Translations under genes and position numbers: made by a program | Assembly: GCA_019096195.1 (NCBI GenBank) | Contig: JAGTXK010000040.1 | Location: 62,001-126,000 of the forward strand | Direction: 5' to 3' | DNA: 64,000 bases | DNA from: Boletus sp. NGJ | Lineage: Eukaryota; Basidiomycota; Agaricomycetes; Boletales; Boletaceae | In this document: piece by piece, positions 26,094 to 34,788 of the stretch | How the letters are laid out: the number at the start of each line of letters is the position of its first letter | Numbering within the stretch: position 1 is the first letter of the stretch | The notes under the pieces: model-generated | Told to the model about the DNA's origin: nothing | Database searches by the model: none | Seen by the model: only the letters and a program-made list of their open reading frames with translations

Positions 26094-28729
26094 TCACCGC
26101 CTCCATTTTCCTTTCGCCATCTTCGCTGCACGAGTCCCCGGTAGGGGCGTATATGGCATGCTTCTTTCCTCCTCTTGAACGCGATCTACCACCGCCCTCG
26201 CTTTCGTCCTCGGACTCGGAAATGCACGCGCTTGCTTTCCCGACCGGGTCCGACGAGGGCTGATTTGCTGTGTCTGTGTCATCGAGCGGGTGACCCTCGG
26301 CCGAACTGGTGTGGGCGAAGATGGAGCGTAAAGCAATTCACTCGCCATTGGTTTAACCCGATCCACCTCTTCTGAGTCCTCGTCGTCTTCGTGTTGGTCT
26401 TGGTCCTGGTCAGATCCGGATTTCTCTAATGCATTACCCCCACCAACAGACCCCTCCCGAACAGCACCCGATCGCACCAAAAACGCATGGGTCTCCGCAT
26501 CATCCGAGTCGGATGGCTCGCCTTCAATCTCGATCATTTGGAACCGGGATAACTCTGATATGAGATCCCCATCTTCATCCCCATCACTACTGTCATCATC
26601 CACGTTGTGCTCATCCTCACTCACCCTGTTCTCCTTGTTGACCTCACCTTCGACACTCGCCTCAAGCAAATCCTCCACAGCCATCTCGTCCTCAAATGTC
26701 TCCTGTACTGTTACTGAGACAGGTCCGACGTCTTCCTCAGCGTATGCTTTATTTGGCCCCTCTTCGACGCGGATGTCCTCTTCAATAGAAGCAAGCACCT
26801 CTTTCGCTTTTCCCTTTCCTCTGCCTCCCTGGGCTTTCCGTTGTGGCGGAAGCTGGGGCTGGGGATCGGCTGAACGCGACCGTGCCCGAGTGTTCCGGTA
26901 AGGTTGACCCACTGCTGGAGCACCACCTCGAGTCCTCCTCTCCGACGGCCCCGGTTGCGCAGAAGCACCACGCGCACGTTGCGCGGTGACGCGTTCCTGT
27001 GTCATGACCAACGTCGGCTGTGAACTCTGTGGGCCGGCTGGCTCAAGTGTAACTTCGACCACTTTCGTTGGTGTAAGGGTCAAGGCTGTAGTATGTTGCC
27101 TTTCAGCAGAGAGAGGCGAAGCAATCAGTGTTGCTTGGGTAGAGAGCGGTGGACCATCCTGTTCAGGAACCGAACGAACCCTTGGGGAAAATGGCTTCGG
27201 AAGGTCAATTCTGTCAAATTAAGGCCATGAGCTCGTCGAACCTAGTATAATCGTAAAAATCAAACACGTACTCTTGAGAGTCAAAGTCGAAACGTGATTC
27301 ATCCCCGTATGTGCGATCTCCAAAAAGATCGCTACCTTCGATTTCATCTGATTCTTCTCTATCCGTGCCTTCCTCGCTCGCTGAACTTCCCTCATCGCGA
27401 CCTGCTTTGACACCCAATGCCCGTCTTTCGATTGTTGACGTATGTGAAACGCGCGCTCGCTTCGCCTGCGTCTTTCGAATGTCGGGTTGACGGTGTGCAT
27501 CAGGATGGACACGGTGGCGTTTGACACGCTGCGGCTCTAGGATAACTTCTTCTGCTTCTTGTATACCATCACCCTCCTCTTCATCCAAGGCGACGAGATC
27601 TTGTTCGTGATGCTCGAGATAATCGCGCGCCGCTTGGTCTGGCCGTCTTTCTGCTGCGACGGCCGGGCGGACTTGTTCCCGTCTTTCACGGACTTGTCGC
27701 CCTGGACGTTGCCCCTCTTCTTCTTCTTCTTCTTCTTCCTCCTCTTCTCCTTCTCCTCCCTCCTCTTCTTCTTCCTGTAATTCTCGTCTCCGATCCCGAT
27801 GGTCATGCCTACGCGGGTCGTGACCAAAATTATGACCGACGCCTTTCAATCGCTGCAGGTAATAATCAATGCGCGCGTCCATCATCTCTGGATTCATCTT
27901 GTAATGCTCTCGCCACGAATGAGTCGTATGTCGTCTTGCCCATGCCCAGGACCGGTCTTCCGTTTGACCCTGCAAAATCACCATATGAGTAAGGTGCGCA
28001 TCAATAGCGATACCACCGCCAACAAGACAAGAAAACGCGCGAAATACCACGTACCAACCGCTCGAGGTCCTTGTATGCGCTCACGCCCATTCGTCCGTCT
28101 CGCGTCGGACATCGCGTCGCGATATAATACGCAAGATGGTCCCTATCCTCTTCCGTGAACGGGACGCGTCTAAAGCACAAAGCACAAAACAACACGCATC
28201 AGTTAAGCCCACATCCACGTCTCCCCAAAACAGAAAGCACATCCGATCCAACGACACGGAATATGCAAGACCCACTCACGTCCTTCTCCCATCCCTTCTT
28301 CCCCCTAGCGCGCGTCCGGGCATCCCCTGCTTGATGGGCCCAGAATGATGATACAACCCGGCGCGGATGCAGGCTTGCACGAACCCGCGTCGTTCGACGT
28401 AGAGCGAGAGACGGTACTGTTCAGTGGAGGAGTAGTACCGGCGGCGGAAAAAGGCGAGGTCTTCTTGTTCGTCGACGAGGAGGACGTTAGCGAGGCGTTC
28501 GTGGGCAACAATTTGGCCACCGTGTTGCTGCGTAAGGGAGTAAGTGAGCGAGGGGTGGTGAGTGGGTGGGTGAATAGATGCGAGGAGAGGACGGACACAC
28601 CTCAACGTTCCGGGTAATCTGACCGCGTCCCTGCGTCACGCTTCCATGAAAGCAAAACTTGACTGGGGCACCGTCTTTGACGAAGAGCGCGTCGTCGTCG
28701 CGTCCGACGGTGGGTGCTCTATTGGCCAT
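26094..28729 (-). CDS. Rap1-like telomere protein with BRCT and Myb domains
   Basis: The start ATG at 28729 gives MANRAPTVGRDDDALFVKDG. Residues 14-110 form a BRCT-like domain (LFVKDGAPVKFCFHG, then HGGQIVAHERLANVLLVDEQ, YVERRGFVQACIRAG). After introns comes a Rap1-type Myb domain (PFTEEDRDHLAYYIATRCPT then RDGRMGVSAYKDLERL, and RSWAWARRHTTHSWREHYKM). A long acidic region follows with runs of Glu near 27720-27780. A small intron near 27245-27270 joins FDSQE to IDLPKPFSPRVRS, extending the protein through a Thr/Ser-rich part to the stop at 26094. No RCT domain was seen at the C-terminus. Known Rap1 proteins bind shelterin partners or telomeric DNA. A second Rap1-like gene lies about 3.3 kb away on the same strand. 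Confidence 0.75.
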
Positions 28730-28881
28730 GGTGACGAGGACGAAGGAAAGACTGCGCTGCTGAGTCCCCGGTTGAGGCTGAAATTTCGAACCCCGAATCA
28801 TGGTTAGGGTTTGGGTGATCTCATCCTAACCCTAACTAACAACACAAACACAATACACTCTAGAAATAAACCCCTGTCTCG

Positions 28882-30955
28882 TCAGCCCTCGTCCTCCTCA
28901 CCCAACACCTCCCAAATCATCTCTCCCTCTATGTAATAACTCGGAAAACTCGCCACCAAGCTCTCAATGTACCAATAACACCCCCCTGCATGCCTCTTAC
29001 CCCCTCGCTCCGGCACCATCTGCACCCACGTCCCATAGAGTACCATCCCATTTACCAACTGCCCTGCCACCTCCCCATCCACCAAAATCACCACATCATC
29101 GCGGTACGGATTCCACGCCTCCTCCCCCCCGTCCCCATCCTCGTCGACGTTCACTCCCTCTGGTCTCACCTCCGCAACAACAGCACCCCTCGACCCAGGC
29201 ATAATCACCGGCCTCGGAAAAGCCACCGTCTCCTCAGATACACTCCCCACCCTCGGACTCATCACAACCCTATAAAACTTCTCCTCCAACGCCGCTTCCA
29301 CAATCGACGCCGTTCGAATTTTATGCCCAATCTCAGTCTCATCCACTGGATTCGCCCCCGGTGCGATCACATCCCGAATTCGCCGCGTCGAAGATTCGAC
29401 AATACCCGTCGTCATCGTCAATGGAAACACACTTGGCCCAAGGAGTTGCATTAACCACGGCACAGACGGGTCCGTCCACGACGCCGTCGTATACTCTTCC
29501 GCTCGAATAGCCGCTGTCCAGGGATCGCCCGCCACAGGTATCGTCGTCACCGGAACCTCATGATCCGTGTCTAGATTGTTTTCCATGACCTGTCTCGCAG
29601 TGATCGAATCCAAAACAACATCGGACGGGACGACTTCGATATCGTGTTCCTTGAGATCCGTTTCGAACGTAGAGCTGGTTTCGCTTGGAGGAGGGGTGCC
29701 GTTGGTCTGGGTATTATCGACATCCGCGGGTGGAAGGGTAGCAGAAATTTGGATGCTCAGACTGCCTTTGATGCCCCAACACTCCTTGCAGGCGAGGTCG
29801 AAGTGTCCGGGAAGGATTTGGCCAAGTTTGGCGGTAAGTGGCAACTCTTTCTGGGCGAATGCAGCGACGGATAGTGCTCGCTTGAGAGTGTCGAGGTGTT
29901 CTGTGGAATCGGCGAATACTCTGTTTCGAAGCATGAAGCGTAGAAAGAAATGCAATACGGTTGGTGCGATAAACAAGTTTTTCTCTGTCCTGTTAACTGG
30001 TCAGATAAAATCGTGATCGGTGTAGACAAAACATGCCAACCAGATCAGGCCTGTGTCACACAGGTAGGACGACAGAAACACCTTGACCGTCTTTTCCATA
30101 TCGTCCAGGAAAGCACGCAGTCGTTGCGCTTCTACTATCGACTCGTTTGGACTCGGTTCGAGCTGTTTTCCAGGAAGCGCGCTTTGTTCGAGATAGTCCT
30201 GGACGATGACCACCTTGGTTTGTTTTGCTCTCGGTACGTCGTCTTCTTCATCGGATGCTTCGTCACCGTTGTTGGGACCATCGACTTGGCCTTTTCGACT
30301 GTTTTTGACCTTTTTGTATATCGGAATGCTGGATATCAGTCCGATATAGATACGGAACTGTAGACGAGGTCGATAGAGGGTCAGACGGTGGCAATGAACA
30401 TGCCTACATGATCCCACATCAACCTGACGCCCTGCGCTATCTCGGGCCAAGTCCGTCCGAGTCTGAAATCGTCCGCTGCCAAGCAGACGCGATCCTCGAA
30501 ACTCGTGTGACTAACAACTGACATGTCAAAACATTCCCACAAAAAAAAAAGGCGCGAATGATGCGAAATATCAAAATATGATATAACGAGGGAACGCACC
30601 TATTAAACGACGCCTCGGTCATCGCGCGCAATGCCTCGCCTTCGTCCCACTCCTCCCACCACGGGATCAACTTCCCCTCTGCATCCATCGTGTTCCCCGC
30701 GTTCCGCTGCTTCCGTCTCGCCTTGCGTTTCTGCGCAGCCTCTTCCTCGTTGGACACCTTGACCGTCGGTATCTTTGCCCATCCGTCGACTTCGATCAAG
30801 TCCCCCGATGGGTCTGTGACGCGCAGATACCCCGCCGGTGCAAACGCGCTAAAAGGTACAATCATCACGCCCTCGGGCGGGGCAGGAAACGGCGGGAACC
30901 TGTACAACTGTTCGTTGGCATGCATCAACGCGGTCACATGCGTTGTCGAGGACAT
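28882..30955 (-). CDS. Arb1-like argonaute-chaperone subunit
   Basis: The start ATG at 30955 gives MSSTTHVTALMHANEQLYRF. Exon 1 ends EWDEGEALRAMTEASFN; later exons give FRLGRTWPEIAQGVRLMWDH, FRIYIGLISSIPIYKK, a Glu/Asp-rich linker, and the block YLEQSALPGKQLEPSPNESI followed by FLDDMEKTVKVFLSSYLCDT. The long last exon has PTVLHFFLRFMLRNRVFADS, WNPYRDDVVILVDGEVAGQL, NGMVLYGTWVQMV and YWYIESLVASFPSYYIEGE. I recognise this order from fungal Arb1 proteins. In fission yeast Arb1 sits with Arb2 and Ago1 in the ARC complex and blocks release of the passenger strand during siRNA-directed heterochromatin formation. The assignment is by memory of family motifs and is moderately sure. Confidence 0.62.
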
Positions 30956-31185
30956 CGTGATGGCGAGTCGTCAATCAAGCTCAAGAGCACAAGCACAGAG
31001 TAGGAATCGTACTTGCCCAACAATATGTTGCTTACCTTCGTACGTATCCGGAGCTGACATAATCGACTCGGCGCCCCTTGTCCTCATGAGTCGCTGCGCC
31101 GGCGCTGAGAACGTGGGGTTTACCATGCACAGAGCGAGACGCCGCCGCCCCACAGTGACCGGTTGACCCTCGTCCCCTCACCTCG

Positions 31186-31931
31186 ATGACCTTAAGATTC
31201 CTCATAACGAAGAAAGACCCCCGCCGTGCCGACTTTATTCTCGTCCGCGACCCCAACGCCCACGCCGACAGCCACGGTATCACCGCCAACCCGCCCGCCT
31301 ACACATCTGACACGACCCACTACAGCAACGGCAATCGCGCTACGACCACCATCACACGCACAGATCCCACTGGCGATCGCTTTCAGGTCGGCGTCATCGA
31401 GTGGCCAGTGCGTCCAAATAATAGCGTGCAGCTCGTCGTGGGCACGAGGGACGTGCAGATGGTCAAATCCGGGCTTTACACGTCGTAAGTCTCGTTCTCG
31501 TTGTCATCCATCCCCATCCCTGTTGTCGTCGTTGATGCGTGGCTACTGGACTCTTCTTGCCCGGGGCATGATGCAGCCCAGAACATTTTATAGCTGCAGA
31601 TGGCTACGTGTACGAATGGCAAATCCAAGACGGTCGTCCACAGGTAAGGTCCACCCGTTTCTCTGCCAAGGTGCCCCACACTAACTCGAACACCGTACTT
31701 AAGCTCGTCCCTCTCCGAACCCACAAACCCACCTCCAATGCCTACGTCGCCACCTTTCTCCAATCCCGATCTGGTTTCTGGCTCCGGCGTAAACGCACCT
31801 CATCACTCTTCATATCTCCAGAGGGATTTCACATCCTTGATGACATTATTGTCACATTTATCTACTTTGAGAGTAAATGGCAGGACAGGGAGAATACCAA
31901 GTCCCATTCAAGTTTATCTGGTGCATTGTAG
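31186..31931 (+). CDS. DUF6593-family protein
   Basis: The start ATG at 31186 gives MTLRFLITKKDPRRADFILV. A polar N-terminal half with paired beta-strand-like segments (RFQVGVIEWP, SVQLVVGTRDVQM) is followed, after an intron ending near 31570, by HFIAADGYVYEWQIQDG and then LVPLRTHKPTSNAYVATF. The ending ISPEGFHILDDIIVTFIYFE is the family's best-conserved part (family pattern I.PEGMHMLDEIVVTFIYVE). DUF6593 proteins are small, numerous in Agaricomycetes and of unknown role. The start lies about 230 bp from the divergent Arb1-like gene, so they may share a promoter. Confidence 0.75.
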
Positions 31932-32034
31932 CCATCTGCTGTTCATTTTCATTCTTGGTCTTGGATCTCAATCATGTTATATTAGAGGGTGAAATAGTGT
32001 ACTTGTCTTGGGCATATATAGTATGACACAACAA

Positions 32035-34788
32035 CTATGAAAATTTCTTCACAATCTCCCTGTGAAGCTTTGTTCTCCCAATCCGCCTTTCTACCTCCCG
32101 GGCTCTCATGTCCTTCTTAAACACTTGTGAAAAGTCATGGTAGCCATTAGCAAGTCCATTCTCATTGTCACTTTCTCCCGCCCTGTCCTCCAAGAGCTGC
32201 TCCTCCACAACACGCCCTTCCTCTTCCTCTTCATCCTCCTCCTCCTCCTCTTCCTCGACATAACTTGCTGACTCCGACTGGTGTTTCCACATTGCTGCCC
32301 TACTTGTCCAAGGCGGCGAATATTCCGATCCTTCTCCGTCCTCTGATGCCGCCACATACCTTAACACTGTTCTTTTCTGTTCCTTCCTATCCCTATCCCC
32401 TCTTCTTGCCTGTCCTACCCCATGCTTCCCTTCATGTGCATCCCCGCTCCCCCGCGGCTCCTTATATCGCCCCCTCGTCTTCCTCTCAATTTCCCTCTCC
32501 CCAAATCCCTCTGCAGCCTTCCTCATCCCCATCAACACCTCATCTGCCTCCCTCAAACTCCCTACTCGTGTATACACTGCTTCCACCACGTTCAGTGCTA
32601 ACCCGTGATTTGCAGACATATGCGCAAGGATCGAGGCGAGGCCGTGCGAGGCCGCAAGGAGGACATCAGGGGGATGGGGGGAGATGGAGATGGGAGGGGA
32701 TGTGGGGTTGAAGTTAAGCAGAGGGGCAGATGCGTTAGTGTCGGTGGGAACGGCAGTGATAGAGCGCGCTGGCGAGGGAGTGAACATAAGCTGAGGAGTC
32801 GAGGTCCCCCCCTAGCGAGGACGTCCGCGCGAGTCCCAAAATATCAGCGTACACCGGGGAGGGAGCGACCCACCTAAATGGCGACCCCGAGCCCGACCCC
32901 AACATTGAACCTGGGGCCAAGGGAGCACGTTCGGGTTCATCAATCACCCAAGGCGTCGCGTGCGCAAACGAAGGGAGGGACCAACGCGACGGCCTCCTGG
33001 GGATTGACGTGTCCGTCGAGGAATGCGAATGCGATCGCACGGACATGGACGAGCGAGACAGCGCAACGAGGTCGACGCTGGGCACCTGTCCATGCTCGCG
33101 TCCGCGTCCATTTTCGCGTTCGCGCCCGTTGCCATTAGCATTCCCGTCGATGGTTTGTCGTCGAATGCGGCTCGGTGCTGGATGGCGCGCTGCCTGTGTC
33201 CGTGATTGCGGGCGGGGAGCGGGATGGCGAGTCTCCCCGGCTGGAGGCTCGGGCCGGAAAGGAGACAGCGTTGAGGCGCGCGGTGCAGGGAAGTTGAATG
33301 CTTTAGAAACGGGATTTGGGATAAGACCAGAGAGCAGCGCTGACGCTGGTGCGGTTCCTATAATGCGTTTGAATGGGGAAGTGCCATTCCGAGTTATATC
33401 TTCGCGTCGCTCGCCTGTCACTTGAGGGGCCACACCGTGATTCAGCTCGGCCGAAAACAGAGTTGCGACGGTGCATTGATCGAGCCGCCGGGAGACCTGT
33501 CCAAACAGGTGATGTGGCTTCCCTTGTTCTCGTTCGGCCATTGCCATCCCCTCCTGAGAAGCCTCGGGTCGAGGCTGGGGTTGGGTCTGACTAAATGCGT
33601 GATGTGTGTTGACCTCGTTGCCTGGTCTACTCACCGTCCTTTGTTTGGCGGTGTGGCCACGAAGGGGAGGCCATCGCGCGTTCTCCTCCTGCTCTTTTTC
33701 TTCTTCAGCCACATCTTCCTCTCCGTGAGGGAATGCACGCGGTACATAACCCCTTTCATCGACCAAGGTTTGCCCGTGGAGTGAATCCACAACACGCGGC
33801 GGTGCGCGCGGGTATACTGTATCAGTAACAGGGGCACTCCCAACATTGACGACAGCAGGGTCCCTTCTGGGCGATGATGGTTCCGAGACAAACACCTCTG
33901 ACGGAGTACGACGTCGTTTTTGAATACGTTTCACGGCACGCGGTGAGCTGCGATGGTGAGGTTCGCCGTCCGCCGCGATTGGGACTGGTTGGTTGAGCGA
34001 GGCTGGGATTTTGAGGGAGGGCTTCTTGGTCGCATCAGTATTCGTATCGTTATTGGAACGCGGTATAGACAACGACCGGACATCCGTCGATCTAGGTTTG
34101 GGTTGGCGGTGTGCCTGCGAGTTCGGCGCTTCCAGAGGCTCGCGAGGGCACTTTGATACCAATTTTGATTTCGACGAGCGTGTGATTGCGTGTTGCGCAG
34201 CCGCACCCTGTTCTGTGCATGTCTTACTAGAGAGTATACGTCAAGACGATGCCACCACCCCCACATGAGACATGGACATACCTAACAGGGGCCTTCTCGA
34301 GCCTGGCGCGTTTCGCGGTCGGCCCGAGCATCTCGATCGGAATTGGCTCAGCAGCTCTCTTCGACCCCTCCGTCGACTTGACGTTATGTTTCCGTTGGTA
34401 GTTGAGAATGAGTGCATCGAAACGGTCCGTGTTCCTAACGTAGCGTTCGCGCCAGGACTGCCACGTGTGGTGGACAGACCACGGCCATGTGTTGTTTTCC
34501 TACACGGGCGATCAGGCTAAGATCAAACGGGATGTGGAAGGGCGTACATTAGCGACCAAGCGCTGGAATATCTTTTGACCCTTGCGACCCTCGTGGGATG
34601 GACAGTACCTGGCGAGATATTTGTATAGGTAACTGTCGTGCTCTGTGGAGAACTCGACGCGGATGCTGTGGGTTTGGGTGAGCTTTAGCGGCGCGAAAGA
34701 GGGAGATACGTACGTGTTTCTGCGAGACTCCATGGTCTTTGGGACCAGGTGCGGTGCTGGCGCGTGCCAGTTGGGTCGCGTCGGTCAC
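32035..34788 (-). CDS. Second Rap1-like protein: Myb plus possible RCT domain, no BRCT
   Basis: The start ATG at 34788 gives MTDATQLARASTAPGPKDHG. The Myb domain begins almost at once: RVEFSTEHDSYLYKYLARYC, then PSHEGRKGQKIFQRLVAN, then after an intron WPWSVHHTWQSWRERYV. These match the same positions in the Rap1-like gene at 26094-28729. There is no room for a BRCT before the Myb. A long disordered Pro/Ser/Arg-rich region follows. An intron at about 32780-32850 (donor after WVAPSP) joins the final exon, where HGLALNVVEAVYTRVGSLRE followed by ADEVLMGMRKAAEGF looks like the helical Rap1 C-terminal (RCT) domain. Acidic Glu runs and a basic tail end the protein. The role is inferred from the Myb match. 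Confidence 0.62.

Follow-up and report, generated by a model that had tools for sequence, protein, structure and literature searches.

The window analysed here, 64,000 nucleotides of contig JAGTXK010000040.1 from Boletus sp. NGJ, contains two Rap1-like genes with complementary domain sets: gene A codes for a BRCT domain and a Rap1-type Myb domain and has no recognised RCT, and gene B codes for a Rap1-type Myb domain and a predicted RCT-like helical C-terminus and has no BRCT (Table 1). In the usual description, a single Rap1 family protein combines BRCT, Myb and RCT. We suggest, with a probability of roughly two in three, that A and B are additional Rap1 paralogs which evolve faster and exist beside a retained, conventional-looking Rap1 (gene C). 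This fungus would then have a small set of specialised Rap1-type proteins rather than a single telomere protein cut into two pieces. As gene C is present on another contig, A and B are not simply the two shares of one Rap1. The first-pass annotation had proposed such a division after duplication; this proposal is not supported, since gene C keeps two BRCT domains, the Myb and a C-terminal bundle and belongs to a conserved Agaricomycete family.

Gene C, a third Rap1-like gene

The window is one part of the fungal genome searched (32.8 Mb, 141 contigs), and the best place for a Rap1 Myb in this search is on contig C81. There gene C, with seven exons, codes for a protein of 492 amino acids with two BRCT domains, a Rap1 Myb and a C-terminal bundle. 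The places for a Rap1 Myb in the genome, whose number is a lower bound, are A, B, C and a very weak one on contig C102 (538073-538294), which matches the BRCT–Myb range of gene C with an E value of 1.97, 22% identity and two internal stops.

A protein search with gene C gave 209 relatives at E ≤ 10. The best 120 of these (P0018–P0137) are 45–88% identical and come from Boletales, Agaricales, Russulales, Polyporales and other orders, as assigned by reading the species names, and many carry the UniRef name "DNA-binding protein RAP1". In the 74 of the 120 that were aligned and scanned (alignment A4), Myb_Rap1 was matched in all 74 and BRCT_2 in 73; the first alignment and the tree each hold 21 of the relatives plus gene C. 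Two BRCT folds, the Myb and a bundle at the C-terminus are seen in the model of the C family (mean predicted local distance difference test score, pLDDT, 68.6; predicted template modelling score, pTM, 0.37), in which the conserved C-terminus is predicted to form three helices with block means of 90–98. The best Foldseek rows are tandem BRCT proteins, and for the first BRCT VIA-align lists the BRCT of human RAP1, both lists being filled by BRCT proteins.

Domain organization of genes A and B

The description of gene A as a BRCT–Myb protein with no visible RCT holds at the level of its family. Taken alone, gene A reaches 13.1 bits with Myb_Rap1 and 12 bits with BRCT_2, both below the Pfam cut-off, and among its family Myb_Rap1 was matched in all seven members (best E 1.7e-9) and BRCT_2 in four (best E 5.2e-6). 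Both BRCT exons are detected (1e-35 and 1.8e-13) by a BRCT profile built from the A family with gene A among its members, and in hhalign gene A pairs with the second, modelled BRCT and the Myb of the C family (E 2e-36). Rap1_C was matched in none of the seven proteins, of which two (P0013, P0014) end ahead of the conserved C-terminal tail; in the five rows that span the C-terminus the tail is whole or partial, P0015 having the first half only. This tail occupies the position where the RCT usually sits in Rap1. Near gene A neither the B-module profile nor the C-family C-terminal profile gave a significant match, and no A protein is among the rows listed for these profiles.

Gene B matches Myb_Rap1 (PF08914) with 35.8 bits against a cut-off of 27.1 (E 1.1e-8). 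The profile was matched in 5 of the 12 B-family members, and the other seven rows of alignment A1 begin inside or past the Myb. The gene B protein begins a few residues ahead of its Myb; no BRCT was found in the 12 B-family proteins, five of which (gene B included) reach the N-terminus, nor as a significant match ahead of gene B up to 42 kb. Since there is no BRCT at its N-terminus, we call B Rap1-like and not a full Rap1.

As the first-pass annotation had expected, the C-terminal fragment of gene B is predicted by AlphaFold2 to be a helical bundle, with helices at fragment residues 47-56, 58-69, 73-83 and 86-113 and block means of 83–88 over residues 51-100, lower at both ends. The first two Foldseek rows from the PDB are the RCT of human RAP1 with TRF2 (3k6g), at an E value of about 1 and with 20–21% identity across 48–50 columns, and VIA-align did not rank 3k6g above unrelated rows. 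The assignment of the bundle as an RCT is thus suggestive only. The best conserved parts of B are this RCT-like region (mean identity 81% to 10 orthologs), the block of residues 717-752 (80.7%, 10 orthologs; flanks 31% and 47%) and the Myb (75%, four orthologs; 67% without P0002), with linkers at 31–53% and two middle stretches at 65–66%. Among named species Butyriboletus roseoflavus is the closest, and its annotated protein P0002 has 84% identity to gene B across the aligned half and 99% in the Myb. P0002 stops short of the C-terminal module, which is present in the other 11 of the 12 B proteins and was used from these as a profile.

Between 20 and 42 kb of the window significant BRCT matches are confined to gene A, the B-module profile finds gene B only, and the C-family C-terminal profile finds neither. 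For the C-family profiles the C-terminal region was excised from 115 and the BRCT parts from 116 of 121 rows, the rest being dropped. The layouts of A and B recur in those orthologs whose records span the relevant end. The profile check suggested by the first-pass annotation bears it out for the Myb in B and, at family level, for the Myb and the BRCT in A; Rap1_C matches neither protein. It had also set two observations against its own proposal: a full-length Rap1 elsewhere is indeed found, with a bundle whose assignment as an RCT is tentative, and a lack of Myb and RCT matches in the window is not, as the Myb and RCT-like matches there are real.

Table 1. Position of the features in the window (coordinates of the 64,000-nucleotide stretch)
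Feature	Position	Strand	Basis and remarks
Gene A, Rap1-like, BRCT and Myb, RCT not recognised	26094..28729	-	768-amino-acid spliced model; relatives P0012-P0017; alignment A2
Gene A exons	28729-28601, 28527-28280, 28169-28055, 27969-27272, 27210-26094	-	spliced model from genome letters
Gene A BRCT domain, exons 1-2	28280..28729	-	family profiles
Gene A Rap1-type Myb, exons 3-4, intron 28054-27970	27847..28169	-	family profile
Gene A conserved C-terminal tail (FPSPxTKAR ... PYxPxxGxxAA)	26094..26225	-	by eye, alignment A2
Gene B, Rap1-like, Myb and RCT-like, without BRCT	32035..34733	-	829-amino-acid spliced model; relatives P0001-P0011
Gene B exons	34733-34714, 34665-34548, 34499-34282, 34226-32870, 32811-32035	-	last junction uncertain
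Gene B Rap1-type Myb, intron 34547-34500	34383..34663	-	Myb_Rap1 profile
Gene B RCT-like helical bundle (predicted)	32473..32676	-	AlphaFold2, Foldseek, ortholog identity
Gene B conserved block SEDGEGSEYSPPxTSRAAMWK, residues 717-752	32269..32376	-	ortholog identity
Arb1-like gene between A and B	28882..30970	-	span read from three open reading frames
DUF6593 gene between A and B	31189..31931	+	start read by the authors

The C-terminal regions of B and C

Several results weigh against our interpretation. Pfam Rap1_C has no match among the families shown for the 74 C-, 12 B- and 7 A-family proteins (for the C members 25 of 32 families are shown), and the designation of the C-family C-terminus as an RCT would rest on its position and its predicted fold. 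In hhalign the B module and the C C-terminus pair with a probability of 2.9% (E 0.015). Only one of the 12 B proteins is among the best 60 rows of the C profile, with 1.9 bits and below 22 shuffles, and 5 of the 121 C proteins reach 3.5–4.7 bits with the B profile, under the best shuffle at 5.9. The same profiles that find no RCT in gene A thus miss the link between B and C, so that their failure does not prove that A is without an RCT. In addition, a member of the TRF family (PF08558) was not found in this genome, but no control genome matched either. A further point of this kind, the reading frame of gene B, is treated below.

Given these weak profile and hhalign scores, we do not claim homology of the B module and the C C-terminus by sequence. 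The predicted helices start within one residue of each other at an offset of 374, which is the register of the hhalign alignment (B fragment 58-69, 73-83, 86-113; C 431-442, 447-457, 460-484). The Rap1_C profile had no match in this genome, but none in 14 control genomes either. No Rap1 match came from PDB profile searches with alignments A4, A5 and A6, nor from PDB single-sequence searches with the N-terminal regions of proteins A and B.

Distribution and phylogeny

The gene B protein search scored at least 7994 candidates and returned 12 proteins, 11 of the B type and P0012. It was one search via shared short words, and diverged relatives could escape it; the statements on distribution refer to the matches listed. 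The B type comprises P0001–P0004 and P0009 from named boletes and six ENA records. P0012 from the polypore Steccherinum is of the A type and matches both the A and the B query; the A type was otherwise found in Boletales. All three types are present in Boletus coccyginus (A, P0013; B, P0003; C, P0022), and as P0013 and P0003 are both listed with a contig size of 779081, A and B are probably linked there as they are here. Steccherinum (P0012, P0130) and Leucogyrophana (P0017, P0048) have A and C. Likewise, A (P0014) and C (P0032) were found in the bolete Chiua virens, for which the matches listed include no B. The species found suggest that the A and B types differ in age.

The Myb tree that the first-pass annotation had called for (83 columns, 33 rows) has an unknown root and carries a program warning that long branches meet. 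It separates C (99/99) and B (100/99) and sets A and B against C with 99/99, or 97/86 without P0012. P0012 joins B at 98/95 when included, and without it A forms one group at only 43/68. None of four alternative constrained trees was rejected (approximately unbiased test, p 0.225–0.29), so the test does not decide whether B is closest to the A group, to a single A protein or to C.

These data bear on subfunctionalisation, in which A and B would stem from one duplicate of Rap1 and act in trans with the BRCT and RCT jobs divided between them. The complementary domains inside one window, the suggested linkage in Boletus coccyginus and the split of A and B from C in the tree, with its unknown root and long-branch warning, are in line with it. 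Nevertheless, we consider it unlikely. Gene C keeps BRCT, Myb and C-terminal bundle, so that no sole Rap1 had to be divided; the A type without a recognised RCT occurs in Steccherinum, while B is found only in boletes and the ENA records; Chiua virens has A and C and no B among its listed matches; and the tree test does not single out A and B as sisters. Quite improbable in our judgement is a related arrangement in which A and B are a linked, co-inherited pair that would form a second, two-part Rap1 in trans alongside the intact C, B docking by its bundle and A supplying the BRCT, for a special state of the chromosome end such as meiosis or subtelomeric silencing.

The reading frame of gene B

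At a G run near 32811-32817 gene B changes frame; in the bolete orthologs the frame continues unbroken. In-frame introns across the run are possible, with donors judged weak, and the orthologs show none. An assembly error seems the likeliest explanation. The shift could also mean that B is decaying or truncated in this strain, leaving a Myb protein that has lost its RCT-like part, and the uninterrupted frame of the orthologs, the weak donors and an orphan RCT-like fragment near a putative transposase (see below), a sign that copies of the module may decay, would fit this. We regard it as improbable, as the module past the shift is 77–84% identical to 10 orthologs and as conserved as any part of B, and as single-base runs are common sites of assembly error.

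Neighbouring genes and other loci

Two genes lie between A and B. In the Arb1-like gene, Arb1 (PF09692) was matched above the cut-off with 30.4 bits (E 3e-7) in the last large open reading frame (28885-30000), and the two reading frames ahead of it have no profile match. The DUF6593 gene matches PF20236 in 31575-31931 (E 2.4e-10) and, below the cut-off, in 31159-31488 (3.9e-4). Arb1 is a subunit of the ARC complex and has a role in heterochromatin. Its presence between A and B, together with the divergent roles of duplicated Rap1 proteins in Hansenula polymorpha described in the text available of PMC6510891, would agree with A and B being Rap1-derived promoter-binding or heterochromatin factors and not telomere proteins. 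This is possible, although we doubt it: gene neighbourhood alone is weak, and the RCT-like part of B speaks for binding to a telomere partner.

Elsewhere in the genome, a lone RCT-like fragment with 39% identity to the B module lies on contig C133 (346637-346852; L003:5138-5353), about 2.5 kb from an open reading frame that looks by eye like a transposase; queries with A, B and C gave nothing else in this 10-kb locus. Contig C103 has a BRCT-like place (191722-191883; L005:4729-4881) weakly similar to the second BRCT of canonical Rap1 (tblastn E 2e-4), with no Myb seen near it by eye in six frames, and contig C35 gave a weak match (E 0.03). Arrays of four TTAGGG repeats gave 11 matches, 10 on C107 (480617-496075) and one at C20:131323; as the reversed control gave 33, nothing is drawn from them.

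Comparison with known Rap1 proteins

A and B share the Rap1-type Myb with the Agaricomycete "DNA-binding protein RAP1" of the C family, and A also the adjoining BRCT. Compared with the two BRCT domains and the three-helix bundle of C, A is without the first BRCT and a recognised bundle, and B without both BRCT domains. Like A and B, Rap1A and Rap1B of Hansenula polymorpha are duplicated Rap1 proteins with divergent roles in one fungus: one copy is reported to bind telomeres and the second subtelomeres, and sites for both occur in ribosomal protein gene promoters (PMC6510891). Both of these copies, encoded on different chromosomes, resemble ScRap1 in BRCT, duplicated Myb and RCT, whereas A and B are partial sets beside a third, intact-looking Rap1. 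The Rap1 of Candida albicans has BRCT and Myb without RCT as gene A does; however, in the parts of PMC4416457 and PMC4839565 at hand it has two DNA-binding Myb domains and is the sole Rap1 listed, and gene A, in which one Myb was found, is an additional copy. Tay1 and Trf2 of the basidiomycete Ustilago maydis bind duplex telomere DNA and are, from the main texts of PMC7744550 and PMC7952879, different Myb proteins; no word beginning with "Agaricomyc-" occurs in these main texts.

Already in print, as far as the accessible text of these papers goes, are the loss of the RCT in C. albicans (PMC4416457, PMC4839565), the duplication of Rap1 in methylotrophic yeasts (PMC6510891) and the loss of the DNA-binding domain in some Rap1 proteins. 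The literature searched, which covered few subscription papers, holds no account of Rap1 paralogs in mushrooms or other Agaricomycetes, in agreement with the first-pass annotation, which knew of no description of the pair.

Possible roles of the three proteins

If A and B are additional family members as we suggest, C would do the standard work of Rap1, presumably at telomeres via a partner and not via its single Myb. B, which has lost or never had the BRCT, keeps the Myb and the RCT-like bundle and would thus, judging from the predicted fold, most likely dock on the same or a similar partner; it may compete with C or replace C at some chromosome sites, without the BRCT functions. A combines BRCT and Myb with a short conserved tail in place of a recognised RCT; its sequence thus points to recruitment most likely by a different contact, and A might act as a BRCT adaptor. 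Three Rap1-type proteins with differing domain sets in one genome would constitute a natural experiment on domain roles: B combines the Myb with the RCT-like part, A the BRCT with the Myb, and the complete-looking C would serve as the control.

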